Source: a candidate division CSSED10-310 bacterium (GTDB lineage: Bacteria > CSSED10-310 > JAFGDC01). From it: a stretch of DNA of 12,681 bases. Positions 1-12,681 of this stretch are shown one piece after another. The first letter of the stretch is position 1. Each line of letters starts with the position of its first letter. The stretch is taken from positions 1-12,681 of the forward strand of contig JAFGDC010000127.1 in assembly GCA_016932295.1 (NCBI GenBank). Direction: 5' to 3'. A program made the position numbers and the translations under genes. Below the pieces are notes generated by a model. It worked only from the letters and a program-made list of their open reading frames with translations. It searched no databases and was not told the origin of the DNA.

Positions 1-56
1 AGCATCATGATCACGGCCGCGAGATACAGGCACCGCCGGCGCGGGGACAGTCTCAT
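1..56 (-). CDS. Start of an unidentified signal-peptide or membrane protein (cut by the window edge)
   Basis: Only the first 18 codons and two bases of the next codon lie in the window. They read MRLSPRRRCLYLAAVIMM, then probably Leu: an Arg-rich stretch (residues 2-8) followed by a hydrophobic run, the normal shape of a signal peptide or first membrane helix. The ATG at 56-54 overlaps the TGA of the upstream barrel gene in an ATGA junction, like most junctions in this operon, so it is probably translationally coupled to the barrel and likely an envelope protein of the same pathway. Nothing visible shows its function. Confidence 0.6.
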   Translation of the reverse strand, partial: MRLSPRRRCLYLAAVIMM

Positions 57-1543
57 CGCCATACCGCCACCTCCACTTCCGCCAATTGGACCATCTCATC
101 ACCAAGCGCTCGCCAGGGATCGTCAGGCCGCCGCAGCGGCGACAGGCGCCTGGCGCTATCCTCGTGGTATCCGCCGGTCCGATACCATCCCCAGAAACCA
201 CGGATCTGAAGATGCCGCCTGGGATTCCAGACGCATTCTATGTCCAATTCGCGACCCAGGTCCCTGTCGAGCCTGGTCCAGCCGGCACCGTCCCAGGAAT
301 AGGGCGTTTCCAGCGCGGCCATCCACCAGCCGGTGATCTGCAAGGTCCAGTCAGGCAGCGGCTCGAGGGTCAGCCGCAGGCTGTCGAGCTGCATGTTTTC
401 CACCATGAATGAATCAAAGTAGAATCCCGGCCTCGGCACGCCGTAAAACGGGGTCAGCGTGCCGCCTCCCAGTACCTTCGGACCATCCTCCTTGCGATAA
501 TGCGCATTGTACATCCCGAGGTCGGTGGGGGGGAAATGCGCGAAGCCTTGGTAATTCCTGGGAATCCGACCGCTTTCCGGCGCCGGCCACGGTTGGCCGC
601 TGGCGGTGGTGTGACCGGCCCGCAGCGACCATATGCCGCGAGTGTAACCAACCGCCGCATCCAGTCGTCGGCCGGTGTACCCGTATCGTTCCGATGGTTC
701 GGTACCGGAGATCGTGTCGAAACCGCCGAAATTCATTGCCGCGGACATCTCCCCGTGCCAGCCGTGCCAGGCCACGCGGCCCGCCAGCGTCCCGGTACCC
801 AGTTCATCGTGGTCCACCATGCCCCAGACGGATTCCAGGCCGTTCACCCGGGTGGCGGCGGGAGTCTCATCAACCAGCCACTCACCAGTCATATTCAGAT
901 GCCAGGACACTCCCGAAAGCGCCGCATTCATTGCCGTGTAATACGCATCCTGCCGGTCGCTGATGATGTCGCGAATCGTCAGTTTCATCGGCTGGCAGAA
1001 CCAGTCTCCGCGTTTCATCAAGTCCTCGTAGTGCATGGTGACGGCAAGCCGGGAATTGAAATAACCCAGCGTCACGCCGGGATTGGCATACTTGTCCTTG
1101 TCAAGAAACCTCAGGATACCTGCTGCCGCGCGCCACCTGCCGCCTGGATTGTTGAGCCACGCGTACACCTCATCCACACGCGGCAGCAGGTCCGATGCGT
1201 CGAGCTTTTCATAGGTTCCGAAGAATGTCTCTCGATCGGTGCCGATGGGGATCGCGTATCGACTCTGACCTTCCGCCGCCACCCGCAGGGCAGCGCCGGC
1301 CAGATCCCGGTAACGCCAGGTGAAGCCCAGGTCGTAGCGCACCAGGAAACCGCTGTCATCCTGGCGCCTGCCGATTGCGAGATACTCATTCTCAAGATCG
1401 AAACCGACCAAACCGAAGGACCCAGTCCAGGTGAACACATGTCTGTAGTTATCCGCCCGGCATGGTTCCGTGGCGACAATCGCGGCCAACGCCGCCAGTG
1501 AAAAGGCAGCTGCCAGCCCCCGCCAGCCGCGGTGACCATTCAT
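53..1543 (-). CDS. AlgE-like (alginate-export family) outer-membrane beta-barrel protein
   Basis: The 496-residue protein begins with a signal peptide (basic start, hydrophobic residues about 9-24, likely cleavage after CRA at residue 30). The rest is rich in alternating Trp, Tyr, Gly and Arg strands typical of outer-membrane barrels, for example RLAVTMHYED, GEMSAAMNFGGF and LDAAVGYTRGIWSLRAGH. Near the C-terminus GRELDIECVWNPRRHLQIRGFWG resembles the closing strands of alginate-export (AlgE-type) porins, and the last residues, VEVAVWR, end with an aromatic next to the terminus. The reading frame stays open far upstream, to about 2230, but that part lies over the sirtuin in another frame, so the ATG before the signal peptide is the likely start. 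The ribosome site is weak (GAGG directly against the ATG). It lies 23 bases after the sirtuin stop and overlaps the next gene by ATGA. A role in export or uptake of a glycan or small product is inferred; another porin family is possible. Confidence 0.7.
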   Translation of the reverse strand: MNGHRGWRGLAAAFSLAALAAIVATEPCRADNYRHVFTWTGSFGLVGFDLENEYLAIGRRQDDSGFLVRYDLGFTWRYRDLAGAALRVAAEGQSRYAIPIGTDRETFFGTYEKLDASDLLPRVDEVYAWLNNPGGRWRAAAGILRFLDKDKYANPGVTLGYFNSRLAVTMHYEDLMKRGDWFCQPMKLTIRDIISDRQDAYYTAMNAALSGVSWHLNMTGEWLVDETPAATRVNGLESVWGMVDHDELGTGTLAGRVAWHGWHGEMSAAMNFGGFDTISGTEPSERYGYTGRRLDAAVGYTRGIWSLRAGHTTASGQPWPAPESGRIPRNYQGFAHFPPTDLGMYNAHYRKEDGPKVLGGGTLTPFYGVPRPGFYFDSFMVENMQLDSLRLTLEPLPDWTLQITGWWMAALETPYSWDGAGWTRLDRDLGRELDIECVWNPRRHLQIRGFWGWYRTGGYHEDSARRLSPLRRPDDPWRALGDEMVQLAEVEVAVWR

Positions 1544-1566: not shown

Positions 1567-2352
1567 TCACGGAAGCTGGATGTAATACTTGACCTGCTCG
1601 ATGCGGTCCATGATCTGGCCCATGACCTTGCCGGTGAGCGCCCTTATCAACACGTCGGCATGCTCGTCGTACACCGTGGATGACAGGTTCACGATAATCA
1701 GTCCGGCTCCGTTCTGCTTGGCTTTCCATGGCAGCAGGGCAGCCGGCTGGACCACCAGCGACGTACCCATGACCAGCATCAGATCGCATCGCATCACCAT
1801 GTCCAGGGCGCGCCGGCTCAACTCGAGCGGCATGGGCTGGCCGAAGGCCACCGAATCCGGTTTCAGTATCCCCTGGCATTCCACGCAGTACGGCACCTTG
1901 ACGCCGTTCAGGATCCAATCGTAAATCTCCTCCCGTGTATAGCGTTTCCCACAGTTCAGACAGGACACGAACAACTCGTTGCCATGCACTTCCACCACTT
2001 TCTCGGCGGACACGCCGGCCTTCTGGTGCAGCCGATCCACATTCTGCGTGATGATCCCCCCCAGCTTCCCCATTTTTTCCAATTCCGTCAGGGCGGTATG
2101 GGTTCTGTTCGGCCTGGCCTGCTTGATGAAGAGGAAAAAATCCTGGCTCATCTCCCAGTATCTGGCCCGGGATTCCTCCGAGGTAGTGAAGCGTTCGAAG
2201 CGAAAATGCGATGTATCGTATTTTTTCCAATGGATTTGGCCAGTCCGGAAATCGGGGATACCCGATTCCGTGCTCACCCCGGCACCGGTAAAGGCAACGA
2301 TGTTTTTACTTCTCAATAGCATGTCAACGGCGCGATCGATTTTCGAGGCCAT
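1567..2352 (-). other. Sirtuin domain with its own possible internal start (261-residue product)
   Basis: This is the C-terminal part of the fusion, listed separately because Met364 looks like the natural first residue of a free-standing sirtuin. The helix MASKIDRAVDMLLRSKNIVA directly before the GAG motif is where ordinary bacterial sirtuins begin, and the codons before it carry a near-ideal ribosome binding site (2363-2353). A soluble sirtuin of 261 residues, with all catalytic and zinc residues, could therefore be made alongside the membrane-bound fusion. Whether one, the other or both exist in the cell cannot be told from sequence. Confidence 0.55.
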
Positions 2353-3441
2353 GTCACCTCTCCAGTTATGTTCCTGCACGGGAGGCGCCACGATCCGCCA
2401 GTAGCGGTGTGCGGTCTCCAGGTCGTCATGCCAGCGGCGGGCGCTGACCGGTGAGTCGGCATAGATGAGCGGCACGGGGATAAGACCGGGCAGCAACCGC
2501 TGCATCGGCTTGAGGTGTGCCAGGGTGAGTGCGGCGAGGGTAACGGTCATGAACGGCACCGTCAATTCCGGCAAACGCAGCAGATCGAACAGGTGGACCG
2601 CAACGATCCAGGCGCCTCCGCCCGCCAGTACGGCACCCATGGAATACCACCTTGCGGTTCGCGTCGGCACGAAAAAGAAACCGTCCATGGCGATACTGAT
2701 GGGAATGGTGGTGACCACGTACATATTCATCCAGGTCAAGCCAGCCCTGCCACCCATCAGGTAGGCCAGGCCCAAGCCCAGGAAAAGACCGCGCAGCGCA
2801 GCGAAGAACGAGTGCCTGGAGTGGACGAGGACGCCTGCCAGGAGCAACACGATGCCTGCCAGGACAGGCAGGCGCATGGTGGCTATCCGGGTAAAGACGT
2901 CCTGGCCGGCGATCAGGTAGTCCCCGCTGAGCATGGCATCGAATCCTGGCGGCTTGACCATGGTCGGCGGGAAGGCGATGCGCAGTTCCCGCAACAGCCA
3001 CATTGCCGGCAATGTCACCAGAACCGACGCCGTACTCACCGGTGGCAGGTTGAAGCGGCTCAGCACCAGGTATCGGTTGAGCAGCATCATGATGGGGACG
3101 GTCGCCACGGAGCAGGCCACCATGGCCGGCAGGTAAAGCCATGAGGAGGAACTCAGGAAACACCAGTACATACCCACCAGCATGCCATTGAAACCATAGA
3201 ATCCGATTTTCATGTACGCCCGGTCACGCCGCAGCGCCATGGCGAACAACTGGGCGGCGATACCACCCAGTATACCGAAGATGCCTACCTTGGGAACCAG
3301 CAGCAGCAGACCAGCCAGAAACAGGATGCCGGACAACGCGTTGGTGCAGAAGAAGATAGAGCCCATTGTGCGCAGCAGGGTATCGGTGAAATCCAGCAGT
3401 CGACTGCGGCTCGGATCGAATCGCCAGTACAGATGCTCCAT
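1567..3441 (-). CDS. Urea transporter (UT family) - sirtuin (Sir2) fusion protein
   Basis: One uninterrupted 624-residue frame carries two domains. Residues about 14-330 form a urea-transporter domain: many membrane helices, the family-like TNALSGILFLAGLL stretch (33-46), GFYGFNGMLVG (80-90), and a good second signature LPELTVPF (290-297). The first signature is degenerate (LPPVSTAS, 132-139). A polar linker (331-363) leads to a complete sirtuin (364-624): NAD-binding GAGVS (386-390) and GIPDFR (394-399), TQNVD (465-469), catalytic His486 in VEVHGN, four zinc cysteines (494, 497, 519, 522), and GTS (559-561). RYW (427-429) plus STESGIPDFR look closest to class II (SIRT4-like) sirtuins; the Tyr-x-x-Arg acyl-pocket pair of desuccinylases is absent. 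The family activities are a passive urea/amide channel and NAD-dependent lysine deacylation. A strong ribosome site precedes Met364, so a free sirtuin may also be made. No Shine-Dalgarno is seen at the ATG at 3441. Confidence 0.88.
   Translation of the reverse strand: MEHLYWRFDPSRSRLLDFTDTLLRTMGSIFFCTNALSGILFLAGLLLLVPKVGIFGILGGIAAQLFAMALRRDRAYMKIGFYGFNGMLVGMYWCFLSSSSWLYLPAMVACSVATVPIMMLLNRYLVLSRFNLPPVSTASVLVTLPAMWLLRELRIAFPPTMVKPPGFDAMLSGDYLIAGQDVFTRIATMRLPVLAGIVLLLAGVLVHSRHSFFAALRGLFLGLGLAYLMGGRAGLTWMNMYVVTTIPISIAMDGFFFVPTRTARWYSMGAVLAGGGAWIVAVHLFDLLRLPELTVPFMTVTLAALTLAHLKPMQRLLPGLIPVPLIYADSPVSARRWHDDLETAHRYWRIVAPPVQEHNWRGDMASKIDRAVDMLLRSKNIVAFTGAGVSTESGIPDFRTGQIHWKKYDTSHFRFERFTTSEESRARYWEMSQDFFLFIKQARPNRTHTALTELEKMGKLGGIITQNVDRLHQKAGVSAEKVVEVHGNELFVSCLNCGKRYTREEIYDWILNGVKVPYCVECQGILKPDSVAFGQPMPLELSRRALDMVMRCDLMLVMGTSLVVQPAALLPWKAKQNGAGLIIVNLSSTVYDEHADVLIRALTGKVMGQIMDRIEQVKYYIQLP
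2353..2363 (-). promoter_or_regulatory. Internal Shine-Dalgarno site before the sirtuin domain
   Basis: The minus strand reads GGAGAGGTGAC directly before the in-frame ATG at 2352-2350. It includes GAGGTGA, seven bases of the ideal anti-16S match, and an upstream GGAG seven bases from the ATG. It lies inside the fusion frame (codons for Trp-Arg-Gly-Asp) and is stronger than anything at the fusion's own start. Confidence 0.55.
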
Positions 3442-3452
3442 GGGCTTGGTGA

Positions 3453-4844
3453 TCAGTCCGCGGGGTTCTTCACGAGCAGCGAACCGCGGGTCTCATCGTT
3501 CACCAGGTGAGCAGGCAGGCGCTCCCTGGCGCGGACATAAGCGCCGTCCTCGGCCTCCCGGACACAGTGCGCCGCACCATCACTGATCATGATGTAGCTG
3601 GGTCTGGTATAGATGAACTGCATCGACTGCGAGAAATTATAGGCGCCGGTATTGCGGATCAACAACAGGTCTCCCCGCTGCACCGCCGGCAGTCTGACAT
3701 CGGTCCTCAACACATCGATGTTCATACACAGGCCGCCCAGCACGCTGACCGTCTCTTCCGGCGCCGGTCCGGCCGTGAGTGCCACCATCTCATGCTTGTA
3801 CCAGTATGCGGTGGGCAGAATGTTCACGCCGGCGTCAACCAACAGGGCGCGATTACCGTTGGGAAGATGTTTGGATGCTACCACGGTGGTCACCAGGGAA
3901 ACCGCTTCATCGACGATGGCGCGCCCCGGTTCAATAAACAGGCGGGGATGCCGTTTCAAACGCGGCAGATTACGCAGCAACGGCTCACAGATCGTCTCCG
4001 CATATTGCGCATAGGTGGGGGAAATCGCTTCACCGGGCAGGAACTGTGCGTGAAGCGTATTGACCGAGGCGTAACCGCCTCCCAAATCCAGTTCCTTCAA
4101 CTCGAAATCCGAGGTCGCCTCCAGCTTCAAGGCAAGCGTCAGCAGTTTCTCCATTGCATCGGAATACACCGTCGTATCAGTGATATACGTGCCGGCATGG
4201 AGATGCAGTCTCACTACCTTCAAGAACCCACCCAGTTCGGCCACGCGGATCGCCTCGTAGGCCTGCCCGTCCTCATAGCTGAAGCCGAATTTGCTCCATG
4301 GAGGATAATTCAACCGTACGTTCACCCGGATACCGATTTCCAGGCGCCGGTCGAGTTTCCGCGCCACCGCTTTGAGTTGTTCCAACTCCTCGAAGGAGTC
4401 GGCATTGACACGGGCGTCGGCTCCCATGGCTTGAAACAGCTCCTCATCGGTCTTGTGGGGACCGTTGAAGATAATCTCTTGTCCGGGGATCCCGAGATCC
4501 CTGGCGATACCGTATTCGAAGCCGGACACCACCTCCGCCCAGGCGCCCTCGGTGCGGAACACCGAACAGATGGAGGACAGGTAGTTGGTCTTGTATGACC
4601 AGGCGATGATGGTATCGGGATAATGAGCCTGGAAGGCGGCGGCCATCTCACGATACCGGCGGCGCAGCAGCCGTTCTGAAATGATCACCAGCGGGCTGCC
4701 ATAGTGTTCTACCAGTGGGTGTATCTCCACGCCATCGATGGTGGCGCGTTGATATCCTTGCTGTGTCTGCGGCGACAGCGTGTTCCAGGCTTTGACCGGT
4801 ACTCGTTCGAAAGCGGGAGCTTCATACGGATGCTTGTTGTTCAT
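3453..4844 (-). CDS. Fold-type III PLP-dependent decarboxylase (LysA/ornithine-arginine decarboxylase family)
   Basis: The 463-residue protein has the alanine-racemase-like barrel and C-terminal beta domain of diaminopimelate-type decarboxylases. Visible landmarks are Lys85 in SYKTN, the PLP Schiff-base lysine; VVSGFE (105-110); GPHKTDEE (128-135); SKFGF (184-188); His216 in LHAG; GGGY (255-258) and EPGR (305-308), which hold the PLP phosphate; VDAG (336-339); Cys373, the catalytic cysteine from the partner subunit; and GAYNFS (400-405). The specificity loop after the cysteine is CMNID, not the CESGD of diaminopimelate decarboxylase, so the substrate is probably not diaminopimelate. It is likely a cytoplasmic dimer. 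The start ATG overlaps the upstream stop by ATGA and has a perfect AAGGAGG site. The setting beside ATP-grasp and RRE genes suggests a carrier-bound or modified amino acid as substrate (inference, by analogy with BtrK). Confidence 0.87.
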   Translation of the reverse strand: MNNKHPYEAPAFERVPVKAWNTLSPQTQQGYQRATIDGVEIHPLVEHYGSPLVIISERLLRRRYREMAAAFQAHYPDTIIAWSYKTNYLSSICSVFRTEGAWAEVVSGFEYGIARDLGIPGQEIIFNGPHKTDEELFQAMGADARVNADSFEELEQLKAVARKLDRRLEIGIRVNVRLNYPPWSKFGFSYEDGQAYEAIRVAELGGFLKVVRLHLHAGTYITDTTVYSDAMEKLLTLALKLEATSDFELKELDLGGGYASVNTLHAQFLPGEAISPTYAQYAETICEPLLRNLPRLKRHPRLFIEPGRAIVDEAVSLVTTVVASKHLPNGNRALLVDAGVNILPTAYWYKHEMVALTAGPAPEETVSVLGGLCMNIDVLRTDVRLPAVQRGDLLLIRNTGAYNFSQSMQFIYTRPSYIMISDGAAHCVREAEDGAYVRARERLPAHLVNDETRGSLLVKNPAD

Positions 4845-5923
4845 ATGGAAAAACCTCCTTCTCCGGCCACCCGCAACCAGCGCTCCGCCGCCACGGGAAT
4901 ATCGAAGGCATTGAATACCAGTATCTTGCCGGCAACCGACAGCGTCGGCGATGAATTGACCGGGATTCCGGCGGATGCCGCCACCAGCAACCATGGCAGA
5001 TTGATACCCGCGGTGGCCGGCAGGTGGCACCAGACCGGCAGCAGCGGAATTATTCGGTCTAACAGGAACCCGCGCCGCGCATCGTACAGGAAGCGCAACG
5101 TGCATGGACCGCGCGGCGACAACCCGGTCGTGACCAAACGAGCCGCAGCCGCCAGCCGCCGGTCCTCGATGCTCATGAAAATCCATGCTTCATCCAGGTC
5201 ATCGCGGGCTATTTCACGCACTATGGCCATAGCAATCTCTTCACCATTCCCGGCAGTTACCACCGCCACCTGGAACGCTTCCTCCTCATCGTACGGGCGG
5301 ACCATCGCCACCGGCTCCGACTCGTTAAACAATCGTTTCACCAGCGTCTCGAGGTCCCAATCGTTTTCAACGATCCAGGTCTTGGCGCGCGGGAGGGAGG
5401 TCAGAAGCACCGGGAATTCGAGAGTATCAGCGGATTCCAGCACGCCGGCGAGCGGTTCCTCATCGTCATTCGCCGCCGGCGGCCATTCATCGGGCCGCCG
5501 AAACGCACTCCAGTCCACCACCGGGATGTCCATCCGCCGCAATCGCTCCAGGGTAACATCCGCCAGCTGTTCGAGGCCGGTGATATCAGGTCCGAGATAG
5601 TGGATACCGGCGGTTTTCAGGCGCGTGGCATATCGCGCCAGGTGCGGAAGATCCGTTTCACGGGTAGCCAGCAGCACGGCAGGGCGGCCGTTGCCGAACC
5701 GTTCGATGAGCGCCGTCATCAACGACTCACCTTCCGCCTCGAGGAGCACGGTTTCATGAAACATGGCATCCAGAATCAAGCCGCTGTGCCGCAACCCGGT
5801 CGCAACGCCTATGTAGCGCAGGGAGACCGCGGATGACAGCGCCAGGGAGCGCGGGATGCCATCCATGGGAGTCAGGCAGGACAGTGGTTCCAAACCCAAG
5901 ACAATGATGTCCATACTGTTCAT
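4841..5923 (-). CDS. Degenerate ATP-grasp paralog (pseudo-ligase)
   Basis: This 360-residue protein lines up by eye over its whole length with the ATP-grasp gene directly upstream: a similar Rossmann-like N-terminal half, then the ATP-grasp region. The catalytic parts are gone. The ATP-binding FPMVIKG of the neighbour reads FPVLLTS here (170-176), so the lysine is lost. The region matching GPCEVEML is GPCTLRFL (272-279), and the metal-binding ELNAR is replaced by DRIIP (289-293). The surrounding fold residues (GPC, then AGINLP matching AGCNMP) are kept. It looks like a tandem duplicate that became non-catalytic, perhaps a regulatory or substrate-binding partner of the active ligase. Alternatively it is an independent divergent ATP-grasp-like protein. 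GGGAG lies seven bases before the ATG, which overlaps the upstream stop (ATGA); its own stop overlaps the decarboxylase start. Confidence 0.72.
   Translation of the reverse strand: MNSMDIIVLGLEPLSCLTPMDGIPRSLALSSAVSLRYIGVATGLRHSGLILDAMFHETVLLEAEGESLMTALIERFGNGRPAVLLATRETDLPHLARYATRLKTAGIHYLGPDITGLEQLADVTLERLRRMDIPVVDWSAFRRPDEWPPAANDDEEPLAGVLESADTLEFPVLLTSLPRAKTWIVENDWDLETLVKRLFNESEPVAMVRPYDEEEAFQVAVVTAGNGEEIAMAIVREIARDDLDEAWIFMSIEDRRLAAAARLVTTGLSPRGPCTLRFLYDARRGFLLDRIIPLLPVWCHLPATAGINLPWLLVAASAGIPVNSSPTLSVAGKILVFNAFDIPVAAERWLRVAGEGGFSI
4854..4860 (-). promoter_or_regulatory. Shine-Dalgarno of the PLP decarboxylase
   Basis: AAGGAGG on the minus strand, nine bases before the ATG at 4844. It fixes the decarboxylase start at MNNKHPY even though the reading frame is open further upstream, to about 5186, inside the preceding gene. 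Confidence 0.7.
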
Positions 5924-6996
5924 AACCGCTCTCCCACATCCATTGGCGCACGCCGCCAGCCACCCCTGTTCAACAAGTCCGTCAACATACTCTGGTCCAC
6001 CAAATGACCAAAACGATTCCGGAAAAACAAGTGGCCGGCGGCAGCGGGAGCGACCTGTCCCAACGACTGGTGCATCGCCAGGCGTACCGCCATCCCCGGC
6101 ATGTTGCAGCCGGCCTCGGCAGCCATGTAAATCCAGGCCGGGAAACGGGCATTCAATTCCAGCAAGAAATAACGGCCAGTGGCTGCTTCGCGCAGCATTT
6201 CAACCTCGCACGGCCCCACCCAGTGCATCCGCTTGAGAAGTTCTTCCGCCTGTTGGACCAGGTCGGGATCATCCACCACCACTCCCGCACTGGCCTTGCC
6301 ACGTTCCGATATGGCGAACTTCCGCATGGGAATGGCCGCCACCATCGCACTGCCGCGATCAGCCAGCGCGGCCACATCGAATTCTTCCCCAACCAGCCGC
6401 TCCTGCAGCACCACGGGGAATCCCCACTGGTTGAGCACCCTGATGTAGAAACACTTCAGTTCCCGCAGATCATGCACGATGTGTGCATCCGCCAGGGAGC
6501 CCTTGATCACCATGGGAAATGCCAACAACTCGGGAGCCCAGTCCAATTGCTCCACGCTGCTGATCACCACTGTCTTTGGCGTACGGATATTGAGCCGGCC
6601 GCAGGTACCGGCCAAATTGTCCTTGTACCTGGCCTTGACCGCCGCTTCATTCGGCAGCAGCGTCTCGATACCCACCTCGCGCAGCTCGTCGCGGAACCTT
6701 GCATAGACGGCGATCTCGGAATCGAGCGCCGGTATGATCACCTGCACGGGATCCTGCCGGTTGATTTCTTTCAGCCTGCGCAGCAGCTTGTGGGACGGTT
6801 CCGTAGGATAGGGAACGATGTACACCGCATCGAACAGATCGTCCCTGAAAATGCCCGTACAATAGATATCATAGGTCAGGGCGATGATCCGGCCGTTAAA
6901 CAGGGGATCACCCCGAAGACAGCGCGCCAGCGCCAGGCCCGGATATGGATTGATCCTGGCGTCAAGACCGGTCACCGCCACCGTCACACCATTCAT
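5920..6996 (-). CDS. ATP-grasp ligase (carbamoyl-phosphate synthase/biotin carboxylase-like fold)
   Basis: The 358-residue protein has a pre-ATP-grasp N-terminal domain (VTVAVTGLDARINPYPGLAL, residues 4-23) and an ATP-grasp domain. Visible catalytic features are Lys165 in VIKG (ATP phosphate contact), QERLVGEEFD (198-207, adenine/ribose side), Glu264 in CEVEML, and the metal-binding ELNAR at 280-284 followed by FPAWIY and AGCNMP. All key positions look intact. ATP-grasp enzymes join a carboxylate, activated as acyl phosphate, to an amine or thiol. Substrates cannot be read from sequence; an amino acid joined to a carrier or peptide is the best guess given the RRE gene upstream and the decarboxylase downstream. 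GGAGG lies seven bases before the ATG, and both ends are ATGA overlaps. A degenerate copy follows immediately. Confidence 0.87.
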   Translation of the reverse strand: MNGVTVAVTGLDARINPYPGLALARCLRGDPLFNGRIIALTYDIYCTGIFRDDLFDAVYIVPYPTEPSHKLLRRLKEINRQDPVQVIIPALDSEIAVYARFRDELREVGIETLLPNEAAVKARYKDNLAGTCGRLNIRTPKTVVISSVEQLDWAPELLAFPMVIKGSLADAHIVHDLRELKCFYIRVLNQWGFPVVLQERLVGEEFDVAALADRGSAMVAAIPMRKFAISERGKASAGVVVDDPDLVQQAEELLKRMHWVGPCEVEMLREAATGRYFLLELNARFPAWIYMAAEAGCNMPGMAVRLAMHQSLGQVAPAAAGHLFFRNRFGHLVDQSMLTDLLNRGGWRRAPMDVGERL

Positions 6997-7238
6997 CTGC
7001 CGTCCTCCAGGGCCGCCAGCCGTTGCAAAAACCGGGTGATGTCGTGCTCGGCCTGATCGTATCCCACTTCGAACTCGGCGCTGATCACCTGGGCCAACTG
7101 GTCGGGAGTCATGCCGCTGCGCAGGGACTGGATAATCCTGATGCCGGTCGGATTGAGCCGGTACAGGTCACCGGTCCGGAGATCCATGAAGAAGCCGCGT
7201 TCCGCCGTGCCGTGAAAAGCAAAATGGTCGGAAATCAT
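6993..7238 (-). CDS. PqqD-like protein (RiPP recognition element, RRE)
   Basis: The 81-residue protein matches the PqqD fold: an N-terminal beta hairpin with FFMDLRTGDLYRLNPTG (residues 16-32; the pattern 'D-x-x-x-G-x-x-x-x-L-N-x-T/S' is typical), then helices IIQSLRSGMT, PDQLAQVISAEFEV and AEHDITRFLQRL. PqqD-family proteins bind a leader or carrier peptide and present it to a modifying enzyme. Its length suits a free-standing RRE (PqqD is about 90 residues). No radical SAM enzyme, the usual PqqD partner, is present; the next gene is an ATP-grasp ligase, so it may deliver a substrate to that enzyme. AAAGGA lies six bases before the ATG. The start overlaps the TPR stop and the stop overlaps the ligase start, both by ATGA. 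Confidence 0.85.
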   Translation of the reverse strand: MISDHFAFHGTAERGFFMDLRTGDLYRLNPTGIRIIQSLRSGMTPDQLAQVISAEFEVGYDQAEHDITRFLQRLAALEDGR

Positions 7239-9202
7239 GGTACGTCCTTTCTCATGGTTTCAATGCGTGTCATGCCTTTCAGCGCCATCTTGTTGTTCGG
7301 ATCGATACCGAGCATCCGCTGGAATTCGTCCCGGGCATCGTCGAGCCGGTTCTGTAACAGGCGGCACCAGGCGATGCCAGTCTGCGCCTCGAGATTGTTC
7401 TTGTCCAATTTCAGGGCATGGGCAAACGCCTGTTCGGCGCGAACAGCCTGGCTCCGGCCTATGGCGACCCACCCATGCAGCGACCATACTTCCGGCAGCG
7501 CTTCGCCTTCCTTGCCGGCGCGCCGCGCCCATTGTTCGGCATCGTCCCACGCATCCCGTGCCAATGCCACCCGCGCCATACCTTGCAACGCGTACAGGTT
7601 GTCGGGAGACAGTTCGAGCACTGACTGGAAGGCCCGTTCAGCCTCTTCGAAGGCGCCGGTGCCCAGTCGCGACCAGCCGAGGCCGCTGTAGACACGCCAG
7701 CGGTCACCCTCGTCGAGCTTGTCTATCCCGTCATGAACCAATGCCTCGAAACGAGCCAGGGCAGCCTTCAAATCGCCCGCGTAATACGCGTTCCAGGCGG
7801 CATTGTAGGCCTGGTAGCGAATCGACTTCAATTCGCTCATGCCGGTCAGGGCTACCGTGTAATAGGGATTGAGTTCCAGGGCACGCGCGAAATACGCCCG
7901 GGCCGATTCGAGCTTGCCTTCCTTCAGGTCGCACCATCCCAACCCGGTATAGAGATCGGTCCATTCCGGATAGGTTTCCAATTCGCGTAAAAAATACCCA
8001 CGGGCGCGGCCGAACTCACCCAGGTAGTAATGACACCAAGCCATGATGGAACCCGCATTGGTGCGCACAGTATACTCGGTGCCATCCGCGGCCCAACCCG
8101 ACTCCACCACCGGCGGCAGCTTGGCGGTCGCCTCGAAACGAGCTTCCAGCCGGGTGATCGCTCCTTGGTAATCGCCGGATTTGAATGCACAGAACGCCCG
8201 GCCTCGATGCAGGTCGAGATCGTCCGGCAGCCGTTCAAGGGCGCGGCTGAAGATGGTATCGGCCGAGATGAAATCACCGGCGCGATAATAACTCCACGCC
8301 AGCTCACCGTAGAGCCTCCAGAAGCTTCGAGTGGCATCGATCGTGTCCAGCAGATAATACACGCTTGGGTGGTAGGGGGAGAGTGACACTGCATTGGAGA
8401 ACTGCCCGAGGGCGCGCTGCTGATTGCCTTGCTGAAAGGAACACCAGGCCTGCCCATAAACCGCATCCGCATACTGTGCATTCACCGCCAAGGCCTGCTC
8501 GAAACGCGTCACGGCGCCGGTGTAGTCCTTTCCCGCATACATATTCCAGCCGATCATGGCGATCACGTCGGCCCACTCGGGATGCGCAACCGCAGCCTTT
8601 TCCAGGACCTTGATGCTATCCTGATGCCGTCCCAGTTGGTACAGCGAAAAACCCAACCCTTTCAAGGCGAATTCATTGTCTTTGTAGATGGCCAGAATCC
8701 TGTTGAAAGCTTTCTCCGCGGCCGTGTAATTCTGCAAGTAATAATAGCACCACCCCATCCCGCTGTGGACCTTCCATAACTCCTCGGCGGGCAGCCGGTT
8801 GGTGGTGTCCTCGAGGATCGACTGAAAAACCGCCAGCGCGTTCTGATAATCCTTGTTGTTGAACAGTTGCCATGCATTGTTGAAAGGAATGTACCGCCAC
8901 TTCTTGACCTCGGTCAGCCCCTTGCCGGCCCCGGCCAACTGCGGATCCATCTCCAGCGCCCGCGCGAATTCCCGTTCTGCCTGGTCATAACGACCCAACC
9001 AATAATAGCACCAGCCCAGGCCCTCCCGGGTGACAGCCTCCTCGCGCCCTCCCTCCAGTGCGCGTTCGAATTCACTGGCCGCCAGCTCATATTCCTGCTT
9101 TTTGAAGTGATCCCAACCCTTCTCGATCCCGGCCAGGACCGAGCGCTGACCGGTCACCAATGAAACTGTCAGGAACAGCACGCGTGTAAGGTTGAACTTC
9201 AT
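7235..9202 (-). CDS. Secreted tetratricopeptide-repeat (TPR) protein
   Basis: The 655-residue protein starts with a signal peptide (KFNLTR, then hydrophobic LFLTVSLVT; likely cleavage after SVLA at residue 24) and is otherwise a chain of TPR helices, so it is probably a periplasmic scaffold. Many repeats carry an unusual Trp-Cys in helix A: GWCYYWLGRY (63-72), GWCYYYLQNY (150-159), AWCSF (252-256), AWCHYYLG (388-395), GWCDL (422-426) and AWCRL (611-615). A block of about 110 residues occurs twice, about 360 residues apart. I chose the ATG at 9202 because GGAAGGA precedes it and the signal peptide follows directly. A GTG at 9253 with GAGGAG upstream would add 17 mostly charged residues and remains possible. 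It is the first gene of the operon. Assembly of the export machinery is a plausible role, but not shown. Confidence 0.85.
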   Translation of the reverse strand: MKFNLTRVLFLTVSLVTGQRSVLAGIEKGWDHFKKQEYELAASEFERALEGGREEAVTREGLGWCYYWLGRYDQAEREFARALEMDPQLAGAGKGLTEVKKWRYIPFNNAWQLFNNKDYQNALAVFQSILEDTTNRLPAEELWKVHSGMGWCYYYLQNYTAAEKAFNRILAIYKDNEFALKGLGFSLYQLGRHQDSIKVLEKAAVAHPEWADVIAMIGWNMYAGKDYTGAVTRFEQALAVNAQYADAVYGQAWCSFQQGNQQRALGQFSNAVSLSPYHPSVYYLLDTIDATRSFWRLYGELAWSYYRAGDFISADTIFSRALERLPDDLDLHRGRAFCAFKSGDYQGAITRLEARFEATAKLPPVVESGWAADGTEYTVRTNAGSIMAWCHYYLGEFGRARGYFLRELETYPEWTDLYTGLGWCDLKEGKLESARAYFARALELNPYYTVALTGMSELKSIRYQAYNAAWNAYYAGDLKAALARFEALVHDGIDKLDEGDRWRVYSGLGWSRLGTGAFEEAERAFQSVLELSPDNLYALQGMARVALARDAWDDAEQWARRAGKEGEALPEVWSLHGWVAIGRSQAVRAEQAFAHALKLDKNNLEAQTGIAWCRLLQNRLDDARDEFQRMLGIDPNNKMALKGMTRIETMRKDVP

Positions 9203-9400
9203 TGTTTCCTTCCATTCGCTGAATCGACTGTCTGTTTGTTTCTCTTCTTTCACCTTGATCTCCTCGATCTCAGGCCCCGATCAGAGGACTTCCGAGTATG
9301 TAATACACTTCCGGTCGAATCGCAAGTAATGGGGCTTTCCGAATCCACCGCGCGCGTTCTCCAGTGTGTGCCGCAGCAGCATCCATCAATGGTGCAGGGT

Positions 9401-9440
9401 AATAGCGGGATTATTATAGATTTACAATGAAACAATAGCG
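9401..9440. repeat. Direct repeat AATAGCG flanking the operon's candidate -10
   Basis: AATAGCG occurs at 9401-9407 and again at 9434-9440, start to start 33 bases, close to three helical turns, so both copies face the same side of the DNA. The candidate minus-strand -10 (9413-9418) lies between them. This is the layout of a paired operator site, but seven bases is short and chance is possible. Confidence 0.3.
9413..9418 (-). promoter_or_regulatory. Candidate -10 element for the minus-strand operon
   Basis: The minus strand reads a perfect TATAAT here, in an AT-rich patch about 210 bases before the TPR start. No good -35 lies 16-18 bases upstream; only sequences such as ACGCTA are found there. 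If real, it would need an activator or another sigma factor. Confidence 0.35.
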
Positions 9441-9460
9441 TTAGTGGGGAAATTGGGCTC

Positions 9461-9489
9461 TTCACAGCCATTCCGGTGACTGCTATGAT
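9461..9489 (+). promoter_or_regulatory. Sigma-70-type promoter with extended -10 for the propeller gene
   Basis: TTCACA (9461-9466, five of six consensus bases) and TATGAT (9484-9489, five of six) are separated by exactly 17 bases, and the -10 is preceded by TGC, an extended -10. It sits 48 bases before the ATG at 9538. This is the best promoter seen in the window. Confidence 0.7.
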
Positions 9490-9537
9490 CCCTCCGACTG
9501 AACTTCATACCGCTCATCGAGTCCTCGGCGGGTGATC

Positions 9538-11064
9538 ATGACCATACGTCGCATGCTCGCTACATCACTGGGAATTCTGTTACTGGTGCCGGTACTGGCA
9601 ACAGTCTTCAATTATAATCGGGAACTGGCCGCTATACTCGCCATTGAACGGCTGCTGTTCGCCGGCACGGCACTCCTGACCCTGCTGGCCGGCGCGGTGG
9701 CGACATTCACCACGGGACGTTTCTCCGCAACGCTGCGCGCGATCATGGCAATACTCGTGCCACCGCTTTTCTGCCTCGCGGCCGGCGTCAAGTTACCACT
9801 CGTCACCGCGATGATCCTGACCATGGTTATCCTCATCAACCATCTCCCACCGGTATTCCTCCGGCGCCTGACCCAAACCCGCGGCAGAGAGGTCGCTTCC
9901 GCCCTCCTGGTGCTGGCAGGATACCCGTTTCTCCTGGCTTCCTGCCCGGTCATCATCGGTCATGTGGCAGGGCACCTCATAGGTGGACCGAAATGGGCCG
10001 CACGCTTGAAAACCATAGCCAGGCTGGCGCTGCTGGCCGTGATCCTGCCCGGCATGGCCGCCGTCGCCGCTTTTTACAACCCGTCAACGCCGGAATCACC
10101 CGGCTCGCACTGCATTGCCAGGGGCAACTATTTCGACCTTGAAATCGATCCCGCCACCTGCCGGCTTTTCGCCTGCAACATCGGTCGCGACCGAATCGAA
10201 GCGTTCGATCTTCGGGACCTCCGCCTGCCACCCCTTCGTAAACACTTTCCCTGCACCACGGTTCAATACATCGCTCACGATCCGGAGGCGCGGAGACTCT
10301 TCCTCTATGACATCGACCCGGGACGGATCTTCACCATCGATTCAAACACCTTGAAAATCATCGATGTGAGAGAACTCGGTCCCGTGTATTCAGAAGGTTC
10401 CGCCATGCCGGTCTACGATCCCTCCTCGGGACTGGTGTACATCTCCGTGGAAGTGGGGGAAATAGCAGTTCTTGACCTCGTAACACATCAAGTGACAAAA
10501 CGGTTTCCCGGCCTGGGGAATCGCAACCTGGACCAGGAAATCGATGTGACAGACCGCCGGCTGTTCCTCAGTTATCCCTTCGGCAATCGTCACATCGCCG
10601 TGATCGATCTCGACACGCTCACCGAACTGCCATCCATCCCGCTTCCTCAATACGGTTCGCAGATCGCCCTGGATCCCCGCACGGATCTCCTCTACGTGCC
10701 GCTATCCCGCTCGCCGCGGCTGCTGGTCATCAACTGGCGCACCGGCCGGATCGAGGCGGAGAGACGTATCGACCGGTGGGTGAGAACCATTCAACTGGAT
10801 CTCCACAATCGGCTGATTTTCACCATCAGCTTCGTCACCTCCACGATCCGCGCCATCGATCTCGACGATGGCTCCTGCAAGGGTTCATGGCAGACGGGCC
10901 GCTGGCCGCGACGGCTGGCCCTGGACGAAACACGAGGCAAGGCGTACGTCGCCACCAAGATGGAAGGTCTCTGGGAGATCGATTACCGCGGCCTGCTGGC
11001 GAGCGGCGGCCTGGAAGCACCGGGAGCGGTCGGGGCGCACAGCATCACGGGCGCATTACCATAA
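9538..11064 (+). CDS. Multi-pass membrane protein with C-terminal beta-propeller (YVTN/NHL-like)
   Basis: The 508-residue protein has two parts. Residues 1-180 contain about six hydrophobic helices (near 8-24, 36-56, 66-84, 86-105, 120-145, 158-180). Residues about 195-485 repeat a short pattern of 'x-D-P-x-x-x-x-L-Y/F' followed by 'I-x-x-I/L-D-L/x-x-T': YFDLEIDPATCRLFAC, YIAHDPEARRLFLYD, PVYDPSSGLVYIS, IALDPRTDLLYVPL, IQLDLHNRLIFTI and LALDETRGKAYVAT. These are blades of a six- or seven-bladed propeller, usually a binding or scaffold domain. Which side of the membrane the propeller faces is uncertain. I prefer the ATG at 9538 (preceded by GGGTGA) over a GTG two codons earlier. It is divergent from the operon and may share control with it. 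No catalytic motif is seen. Confidence 0.75.
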   Translation: MTIRRMLATSLGILLLVPVLATVFNYNRELAAILAIERLLFAGTALLTLLAGAVATFTTGRFSATLRAIMAILVPPLFCLAAGVKLPLVTAMILTMVILINHLPPVFLRRLTQTRGREVASALLVLAGYPFLLASCPVIIGHVAGHLIGGPKWAARLKTIARLALLAVILPGMAAVAAFYNPSTPESPGSHCIARGNYFDLEIDPATCRLFACNIGRDRIEAFDLRDLRLPPLRKHFPCTTVQYIAHDPEARRLFLYDIDPGRIFTIDSNTLKIIDVRELGPVYSEGSAMPVYDPSSGLVYISVEVGEIAVLDLVTHQVTKRFPGLGNRNLDQEIDVTDRRLFLSYPFGNRHIAVIDLDTLTELPSIPLPQYGSQIALDPRTDLLYVPLSRSPRLLVINWRTGRIEAERRIDRWVRTIQLDLHNRLIFTISFVTSTIRAIDLDDGSCKGSWQTGRWPRRLALDETRGKAYVATKMEGLWEIDYRGLLASGGLEAPGAVGAHSITGALP

Positions 11065-11223
11065 CCGGCCGGATGAGCCGGATGCCCTACCGTTCTCGAC
11101 ACATTTGCCATTGTGTTTCCATCTGCCCGTAAGTGGTGCATCGTTCTTTTTTTACTCGCCCGGCAGGATCGGGGGAATATTTACGATGTGCGTGTATCAT
11201 TATGGTGAAGGAGGTGAGACCAG
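11065..11223. other. Gap between the propeller gene and the sigma-factor gene
   Basis: This 159-base gap holds no gene. A short CCGGC/GCCGG stem (about 11065-11082) lacks a following T-run, and the T-run at 11144-11153 lacks a convincing stem, so I do not call a terminator. A weak promoter candidate for the sigma gene is TTTACT (11151-11156) and GAATAT (11175-11180) with an 18-base spacer. Confidence 0.4.
11208..11217 (+). promoter_or_regulatory. Perfect Shine-Dalgarno of the ECF sigma gene
   Basis: AAGGAGGTGA is a ten-base match to the ideal ribosome site. The GGAGG core ends nine bases before GTG at 11224, which sets a GTG start for the sigma factor. Confidence 0.75.
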
Positions 11224-12681
11224 GTGGACCTGGCAAAGGTGATCGAAAAAGTACTGGATGGCGACAGGGAGGCTTTTACGAACATCGTCGAAGCGCGCCA
11301 GGGGAAAGTGTACCGCTTGTGCCTCAGCATGACGGGCAATACCTGGGAGGCTGAGGACCTGACCCAGGAAGTATTCATCCAGGCGTTCTTCAGCCTCTCC
11401 CAGTTGCGCGATCCCGGCAGATTCGATGCCTGGCTGCGGGCTATCACCATCAACCATTGCCGGCGTTGGTACAGAAGCCAACCGGCGCCAACACCCGAGA
11501 CCGCCTTGGAGAAACACCCCGCCCCCGCCGAGGATCACCGAAGCGGACTCTTGATTAATCGACTTCTGCGCGGCCTTCACCACTTGTCCCTCCAGCACCG
11601 GCTCATACTGGCGCTGCATTACCTGGAAGACCTTTCCTACGAGGAGACCGCGGCCTTTTTAAATATCCCGATGGGTACCGTCATGAGCCGCTTGCACCGC
11701 GCGAGGCGGGCATTGAAGGATATCGTCGTCGATCCCGACAAAGAATTGGAGATTTCCATGACTGACGAATATATGATGAAAGACGAGATTCAAGCTGAGA
11801 TCACCGTCCTGGCGAAGTTGCTCGGCACTGATGCCGCGGCTCCGGAGCGCCTTCGGATCATTTTGCGGCGGACGCCGGATCGTATCATGGAACTACTCGC
11901 GGACACCGGTGATGAGCTGCTCCTGGACCGACTGGCGCTGCTGCTGCCGCAACTCGGAGCGACGGTTGTCGATGCGCTGGTGAAAGGATATGCAGGAGCC
12001 GACCGGCGAGTAGCGGAACGATGCGCCCGAGTACTCACCGCCGCCATCGGACGGAAGCATCGACGATGGTTCAAGGGGGATGACCCGGAACTGGCCGGAC
12101 TCACCGTGTACCTGGTAATGGACCGCGTCCTGGCGTATCAACCGCCGCCGGTGGAATTGATCTTCAAACTGCTGTGCGCAGACACCGACGAACCTGCCGC
12201 CGCCCTCGTCACCAACCTATTTCTGTGTTTTGGTGATCCCGCCCGACATCTGCTCCTGAACCATTTCCGCTCGTGCGTTGCGCCACGCGACCTGCATGCC
12301 CATCCTGTCCTGTTGCATGCGCTGTGCAGGACCGGACGGTTCTTTACCGAGGAATTGCTTCACCTCTTTCAGCTCGGCGACCGGAAAGCCGCCCGCCTGG
12401 CATTGGCCGGTGCCGATGCGTTGGCGCGTTGCCTGGAGCGCGGCGCGGCAGCGGACACCACGCCTCTGAACCTGTCGTTTCAGCGCAGAACCAGGCTGAA
12501 ATGGCCCCCACTGACCCACCGGGAAATCGGTGCGGAAAGTATGAAAAAACTGACATACCACTGCCGGCTGTTGCTGGATTCACCCGTATCGGACCTGCGC
12601 GAGGCCGCGGCCAGGGTATCAGGACACCTGAAGGACGGTGACGCCCTGGACCGACTGGCTGAACTCGCCGGCGATCAGGAG
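11224..12681 (+). CDS. ECF-family RNA polymerase sigma factor with long helical-repeat C-terminal extension (3' end outside window)
   Basis: The frame starts at GTG 11224 and runs 486 codons to the window edge with no stop. Residues about 1-80 are sigma region 2: DREAFTNIVEARQGKVYRLC, then the core-binding DLTQEVF (45-51) and FDAWLRAITINHCRRWYR (67-84). Residues about 118-168 are region 4: LSLQHRLILALHYLEDLSYEE, then the helix-turn-helix FLNIPMGTVMSRLHRARRALKD. A usual ECF factor would end near residue 178. Here the frame continues into a Leu- and Ala-rich region of paired helices with no membrane segment in view, for example DRIMELLADTGDELLLDRLALL and DRRVAERCARVLTAAIG, resembling HEAT-type repeats. 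It may sense a signal or hold the sigma factor inactive. An ATG at 11758 with TTGGAG before it could start a separate protein. No classical anti-sigma gene follows within view. Confidence 0.85.
   Translation, partial: MDLAKVIEKVLDGDREAFTNIVEARQGKVYRLCLSMTGNTWEAEDLTQEVFIQAFFSLSQLRDPGRFDAWLRAITINHCRRWYRSQPAPTPETALEKHPAPAEDHRSGLLINRLLRGLHHLSLQHRLILALHYLEDLSYEETAAFLNIPMGTVMSRLHRARRALKDIVVDPDKELEISMTDEYMMKDEIQAEITVLAKLLGTDAAAPERLRIILRRTPDRIMELLADTGDELLLDRLALLLPQLGATVVDALVKGYAGADRRVAERCARVLTAAIGRKHRRWFKGDDPELAGLTVYLVMDRVLAYQPPPVELIFKLLCADTDEPAAALVTNLFLCFGDPARHLLLNHFRSCVAPRDLHAHPVLLHALCRTGRFFTEELLHLFQLGDRKAARLALAGADALARCLERGAAADTTPLNLSFQRRTRLKWPPLTHREIGAESMKKLTYHCRLLLDSPVSDLREAAARVSGHLKDGDALDRLAELAGDQE
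11746..11760 (+). promoter_or_regulatory. Possible internal ribosome site and ATG at the end of the sigma domain
   Basis: TTGGAG (11746-11751), six bases, then ATG (11758-11760), in the same frame as the sigma factor and exactly where a normal ECF factor would end (Met179). It could start translation of the helical-repeat part as its own protein. Confidence 0.35.

Follow-up and report, generated by a model that had tools for sequence, protein, structure and literature searches.

The last gene of an operon in the 12,681-nucleotide stretch of DNA analysed here (contig JAFGDC010000127.1, from a candidate division CSSED10-310 bacterium; hereafter the window) joins a urea transporter (UT) domain to a complete sirtuin (Sir2) in one frame of 624 codons, and it is near certain that this is a genuine and conserved fusion. 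We put at roughly 40% the probability that the UT-Sir2 protein, held at the membrane beside a UT-derived module, cleaves an amide as the final step of a small-molecule pathway. The features that the argument calls upon are these:

1567..3441, minus strand: UT-Sir2 fusion gene, 624 codons (open frame and Pfam domains)
2521..3384, minus strand: UT (urea transporter fold) domain, residues 20-307
2386..2493, minus strand: C-terminal extension of the UT module, residues 317-352, with a helix at 331-351 (alignment and model)
1585..2352, minus strand: Sir2 (sirtuin) domain, residues 364-619
2357..2363, minus strand: GGAGAGG, Shine-Dalgarno-like, in frame before Met364 (from sequence; putative function)
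2350..2352, minus strand: possible internal ATG (Met364) of a free sirtuin (from sequence)
3453..4844, minus strand: PLP decarboxylase of fold-type III, 463 aa, the next gene upstream (Pfam PF02784 and PF00278)
4809..4826, minus strand: YEAPAF, a YxxPx(hydrophobic) motif near the decarboxylase N-terminus (sequence pattern)
4841..5923, minus strand: 360-aa protein at the second ATP-grasp position (weak similarity to second ATP-grasp)
5920..6996, minus strand: ATP-grasp ligase (Pfam PF15632, 47.4 bits)
6993..7238, minus strand: PqqD-like small protein of the RiPP recognition element type (Pfam PF05402, 46.6 bits)
7235..9253, minus strand: TPR-repeat protein at the operon head (Pfam TPR)

The fusion frame begins with an ATG at 3441 and its translation runs through to 1567 without an internal stop. 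Pfam places UT (PF03253; 126.3 bits against a cut-off of 25) at residues 20-307 of the window's protein, P0001, and SIR2 (PF02146; 147.8 bits, cut-off 24) at residues 386-566; both the UT fold and the sirtuin fold are present in a single open frame, as a reading made from the sequence alone (the sequence-only reading) had proposed. It had also pointed to positions 2350-2460, approximately residues 328-364, as the place where a sequencing error might have created the join. The frame is open there, no frame error is seen, and the stretch consists of the UT C-terminal extension followed by a short linker of low confidence (residues 351-361, with pLDDT below 50 in the predicted structure). The extension, with its helix at 331-351 in the predicted model, has a mean pairwise identity of 36% among 55 fused proteins; it also forms the end of a separate UT gene at the locus L045, and a similar one can be made out by eye in the UT-M23 proteins described below. 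An artefact of this record, in which a lost stop or a frameshift merged two genes, has next to no probability: nothing was found in its favour (although L045, L118 and L119 do have the two as separate genes), and fusion by chance or error is excluded because 59 other proteins, from several sources and 31-61% identical to P0001, carry both domains. All seven loci found in the genome collection, every one of them recorded as planctomycete, are likewise fused and devoid of internal stops.

The database search behind these numbers scored 7999 candidates and returned 73 matches: the window's own protein, the 59 other fused proteins (P0002-P0060) and 13 Sir2 proteins without UT. PF03253 and PF02146 thus occur together in 59 of the 72 other matches, but the search favours fused relatives because the whole-length protein was the query and a length window was applied. 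The 392 genomes of Planctomycetota are a less biased sample. UT is found in 37 of them (38 matches), ten times fused to Sir2 (once, in G192, truncated by the contig end), once with a separate adjoining Sir2 gene (G210), ten times fused to an M23-type domain, once truncated where its contig stops (G306) and 16 times standalone, a classing that rests on open-frame length, neighbours and follow-up, with the standalone matches inspected in part.

L045 shows the separate state: its UT gene (10044-11144) shares four bases with its Sir2 gene (9238-10047), and both belong to the same operon. The class to which the genome of L045 belongs (75 genomes) contributed two further split loci, L118 and L119, among four examined (in the class of G210, 24 genomes have matches and new surroundings were looked at for four). 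L118 is 93-96% identical to L045; for L119 the figures are 64% in Sir2 and 59% in UT. In this one lineage, then, UT and Sir2 are adjoining separate genes of the same operon. The homologues are mostly fused, with a minority of adjacent separate genes, and not always two genes, the pattern that would have spoken against the sequence-only reading.

In a midpoint-rooted UT tree the 25 fused proteins that were included (of 55 aligned; the trees also took 7 of the 16 standalone UTs) cluster together (96/84) and are joined next by the separate UT (100/96). The UT-M23 proteins make up a second cluster (95/90) of 11 rows, one of which is truncated ahead of any M23. The simplest history would be a single fusion of neighbouring genes. 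The Sir2 tree does not settle single against multiple fusion, because it does not bring the fused proteins together (2 changes) and puts both the split gene and P0059/P0060 on long branches. Standalone relatives of the UT half alone were not found at E 1e-3 among 7996 scored candidates, which marks the limit of that search; one viral_contigs scan gave no viral relatives; and a search for closer relatives of the window in the class of G137 (23 genomes) gave G137 only at E 1e-60. Database names for such proteins vary, some being 'urea transporter' and others 'NAD-dependent deacetylase': both parts belong to known families, and their pairing is already visible in database records. A literature word search, thin on subscription journals, found no description of the UT-sirtuin pairing, the UT-M23 pairing or the operon. 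Behind UT-Sir2 there is possibly a new pathway.

The operon of the window runs in the order TPR protein, PqqD-like protein, ATP-grasp, ATP-grasp-like 360-aa protein, PLP decarboxylase and, last, UT-Sir2. Its genes are linked by four-base overlaps (7235-7238, 6993-6996, 5920-5923 and, with the decarboxylase start assigned to 4844 in this analysis, 4841-4844), and 11 bases separate the decarboxylase stop from the UT-Sir2 start. The ATP-grasp ligase is 41-43% identical to the protein in the same slot of L002, L003, L004, L006 and L007. The 360-aa protein has no Pfam or NCBIfam match; by tblastn it is similar to the second ATP-grasp slot of L003-L007, with E values of 1.2e-4 to 1.5e-6. The top NCBIfam match of the PqqD-like protein is lasso_PqqD_Strm (51.3 bits, below the cut-off of 70), and no lasso cyclase was found by Pfam or NCBIfam among the nine window ORFs scanned. 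Downstream of UT-Sir2 lies a 496-aa protein (53-1543, minus strand; by eye, a likely signal peptide); neither Pfam nor NCBIfam recognises it, and tblastn finds nothing like it in L001-L007 or L045-L059. Divergent from the operon is a 510-aa protein (9532-11064, plus strand) with a by-eye hydrophobic N-terminal part and a weak NCBIfam beta-propeller match (24.6 bits, below cut-off). The plus strand also encodes an ECF sigma factor domain with a long in-frame C-terminal part that runs off the window (11224-12681).

Fifteen related operon loci were compared (L001-L007 and L045-L052). In all 15, the seven from the genome collection among them, the first matched gene on the upstream side is the decarboxylase, and a decarboxylase homologue is nearest upstream in all ten Sir2-fused genomes of the 392 (three genomes are common to the seven-locus set and these ten). 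The first type of ATP-grasp is matched in 13 of the 15 loci, as are TPR repeats, and the two loci that have neither, L001 and L005, are short contigs; the second ATP-grasp is unmatched in L049, L050 and L052. A PqqD-like gene is matched by tblastn in L003, L006 and L047 and by Pfam in L045, as well as in L091, L092, L094-L097, L118 and L119, and is unmatched in the other loci. Approximately 600 bases separate the decarboxylase from UT in L046 and L090. Seven standalone Sir2 loci (L053-L059) have none of the operon neighbours in the stretch covered. The genome G029 has a second decarboxylase homologue (L103, contig C224), at a contig end and apart from its UT-Sir2 operon.

Searching the 392 genomes with the decarboxylase gave 27 matches in 26 genomes at E 1e-40, of which the 24 at E 1e-70 or better are counted here (a limit chosen afterwards, which leaves out G185, G239 and G294). 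Ten of these lie beside UT-Sir2, eight beside UT-M23 (L090-L097), one beside the split pair and one by the contig-cut UT of G306; two are at contig ends (G276 and G029 C224), and two, in G319 and G067, have no UT in the stretch covered. The same kind of operon can therefore have either of two amide-cleaving enzymes, each joined to a related UT module. The likeness extends to the order of ATP-grasp and decarboxylase, which is the same in the eight sampled genomes; the differences are that M23 replaces Sir2, that only one ATP-grasp is matched and that the channel filter is nearer to the canonical one. M23 was detected by Pfam in the two UT-M23 proteins scanned (51.1 and 40.5 bits against 28.7) and assigned to the remainder from similarity to these. 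A UT-M23 query gave 32 database matches, 26 of them with UT and M23, one named as Hymenobacter. The M23-type peptidase is fused to UT modules behind ATP-grasp and decarboxylase in L090-L097, L070 and L077, in parallel to UT-Sir2, and G042 has a UT-M23 protein with no decarboxylase match in the surrounding 13 kb.

The sirtuin half is the better conserved, with a mean pairwise identity of 58%, compared with 34% for the UT part, in an alignment of the 55 longer fused proteins among the 60 (five short ones were left out). Residues G386, A387, G388, S390, D397, R399, N467, D469, H486, C494, C497, C519, C522 and S561 are invariant in all 55. The claim that every catalytic and zinc residue of a sirtuin is present thus holds for those checked: the catalytic His, the Asn and Asp of the NAD site, GAGxS and the four zinc Cys are found in P0001 and kept throughout. 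These residues are shared with the bacterial and archaeal sirtuins Sir2Af2, Sir2Tm and CobB, but UT-Sir2 differs from these in its attachment to a membrane module and its link with a single operon. Further invariant residues near the catalytic ones (W405, R425, Y428, W429, M431 and F435) may mark a special substrate region. SIRT5-type desuccinylases have a Tyr and Arg pair that binds the acid; this pair, in an alignment made by eye, seems to be absent, S432 and F435 being found. The best solved relatives are Sir2Af2 and Sir2Tm; since Sir2Af2 is the closest by sequence and one of its structure entries is a complex with a myristoylated peptide, a hydrophobic acyl substrate for UT-Sir2 is possible, by analogy. 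The score against the CobB equivalog NF040867 is 249.8 bits, below the cut-off of 320. An anti-phage defence system was considered and rejected, PADLOC having assigned no family to P0001 or to four of its operon neighbours.

The channel half has fared differently. Excerpts of the account of dvUT (PMC4357013) assign E187, V188, F190 and L293 to the So site of its filter, L84, T130, L247 and T294 to Sm, and F80 and L129 to Si. The dvUT residue numbers used here are the chain numbers of the alignment less 3. Gln24 is added to the set as what we take to be a further filter residue. Among the 55 fused proteins V188 and F190 are unconserved, as is E187, near which the alignment is unsure (MAFFT and phmmer differ by one residue, and neither shows a conserved acid); Gln24 has become Ala in 40, T130 Ser in 47 and L247 Pro in 51. 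Kept are L84 (52 of 55), T294 (54), L293 (44), L129 (47) and, as Phe or Tyr, F80 (54); of the two LPxxTxPF motifs the first is degenerate and the second mostly kept. UT-Sir2 differs from the SLC14/UT channels (dvUT 3k3f, human UT-B) in all of this: the unconserved E187, V188, F190 and Gln24, the Ser that mostly replaces T130, the Pro that mostly replaces L247 and the degenerate first LPxxTxPF. The standalone UTs of the phylum keep Gln24, T130, V188 and F190, with Gln at 187, in all seven aligned (of 16 found). Gln24 and F243 are retained in the separate UT of L045 (on which two MAFFT runs disagree near E187), and the filter of the UT-M23 group is intermediate, so the filter changed partly within the fused group. 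The score against urea_trans_yut (TIGR03441) is 80 bits, below the equivalog cut-off of 274.6. Since the UT fold is kept while Gln24 and most of the outer filter site are lost, the name 'urea transporter' is unsafe, and the altered filter makes conduction doubtful: the UT-Sir2 pore may be widened, changed or closed. The sequence-only reading had a pore conducting urea or amides; its case is weakened at E187, V188, F190 and Gln24 and retains something at L84, T294, F80/Tyr, L293 and L129.

A YxxPx(hydrophobic) motif is found near the N-terminus of 26 of 29 decarboxylases, those of the window, L003-L007, L045-L052, L090-L097 and L100-L103 (27 by pattern, a raw count; the match in L104 was dropped as falling in the catalytic domain). 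It is absent from the decarboxylases of L001 and L002 and present in that of L101, which has no UT nearby. Its fixed place near the N-terminus is the reason for taking it as meaningful. In the M23-type loci the motif is often followed by a stretch containing MNK. YxxP is given as a recognition sequence of lasso peptides for RREs, with PqqD among the RREs, in excerpts of PMC12710340. The motif of the decarboxylase may, on the strength of this resemblance, be a PqqD/RRE recognition site.

How might these pieces work together? On the reading we prefer, the operon would make a small product of the amine or amide type. The PqqD-like protein would dock on the leader-like YxxP motif of the decarboxylase, one or more ATP-grasp ligases would form an amide between an amino acid and its carrier or partner, and the PLP decarboxylase would take off a carboxyl group. 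Last, an amide would be cut on the inner side of the membrane, by NAD-dependent deacylation where Sir2 is present and by peptide-bond cleavage where M23 stands in sister operons, and the UT-derived module would pass the released small neutral product or only keep the enzyme in place there. All of this chemistry is inferred, as are the sequence of the steps, the side of the membrane and any transport. The reading draws its support from the 59 other fused proteins, the unbroken decarboxylase linkage in both genome sets, the split genes in the same operon, the eight genomes with decarboxylase and UT-M23, the four-base overlaps and 11-base gap, the greater conservation of Sir2 than of UT with its invariant catalytic residues, the place of the separate UT in the UT tree, and the frequency of YxxP. 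It is weakened by several observations. Sir2 and M23 share merely the kind of bond cleaved; M23 enzymes usually work outside the cytoplasm, which sits badly with the cytoplasmic C-terminus of the UT family; the filter is altered; the 360-aa slot is weakly ATP-grasp-like, and the second ATP-grasp goes unmatched in three loci; the PqqD-like gene is matched in some loci only; and the decarboxylases of G319 and G067 have no UT nearby. The suggestion that the sirtuin acts on a product at the pore is, among the ideas of the sequence-only reading, the one that fits best, though it rests on inference. The butirosin proteins BtrJ and BtrK are an ATP-grasp and fold-III decarboxylase pair. Like this operon on the preferred reading, that system has a ligase, a decarboxylase and then removal of a protecting group; it differs in that no acyl carrier protein was found by Pfam among the window ORFs scanned, and we know of no counterpart in BtrJ/BtrK-type systems of the membrane module or of Sir2. 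A bolder version, which we regard as unlikely though not remote, is that the operon class itself is new: a leader-tagged decarboxylase, with a PqqD-type guide and ATP-grasp ligases, would build an intermediate held by an amide link, and a UT module with an interchangeable Sir2 or M23 would free and export the product in a single step. The sirtuin would then be a deprotecting enzyme of small-molecule biosynthesis and not a regulator of proteins.

Other accounts of the same protein have to be weighed. The loss of Gln24 and of E187, V188 and F190 and the low conservation of the UT part would also suit a non-conducting anchor or scaffold that holds an ordinary protein deacylase at the membrane; such an account is unlikely, if still to be reckoned with, in that the mostly kept L84, T294, L293, L129, F80/Tyr and second LPxxTxPF go beyond the needs of an anchor and the strict operon linkage speaks against a general deacylase. 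Physical fusion through a short linker invites the thought, voiced in the sequence-only reading, that the sirtuin gates the pore by deacylating its own channel. This must now be considered improbable: no lysine within residues 1-351 of P0001 is common to more than half of the 55 fused proteins, which disposes of a conserved lysine as the target of auto-deacylation, and related UT modules in sister operons bear M23 instead of Sir2. The UT-M23 relatives argue also against a channel for nicotinamide, the product and inhibitor of the sirtuin, which M23 does not make; the planar, neutral character of nicotinamide as an amide and the apparent change in the outer filter speak for it, but we consider this account very improbable.

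One further proposal is compatible with the preferred reading of UT-Sir2 as a tethered last step: that the gene has two products, the fusion and a free sirtuin started at Met364. The window has GGAGAGGTGAC-ATG at this place; P0001-P0007 all have NW[EKR]G[DN][ML], preceded by residues that vary; sir2 is a separate gene in L045; and L005, L046, L050, L051 and L052 have candidate starts and Shine-Dalgarno-like letters elsewhere in the linker (a comparison that left out L001 and L002). Against it, L006 and L047 lack a start codon throughout the stretch compared, and Met occurs within 357-372 in 25 of the 55 fused proteins. A second product seems rather unlikely; the Met364 site may be a relic of a once separate ribosome site or a live start.

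If the preferred reading is true, sirtuins gain a role that is set by an operon, at the membrane, in a pathway with a searchable substrate. A fold annotated as a urea transporter has here been reused as a carrier of alternative hydrolases, with the concrete prediction that Sir2 and M23 do the same job, and the 'urea transporter' labels on such proteins of the Planctomycetota may be wrong.
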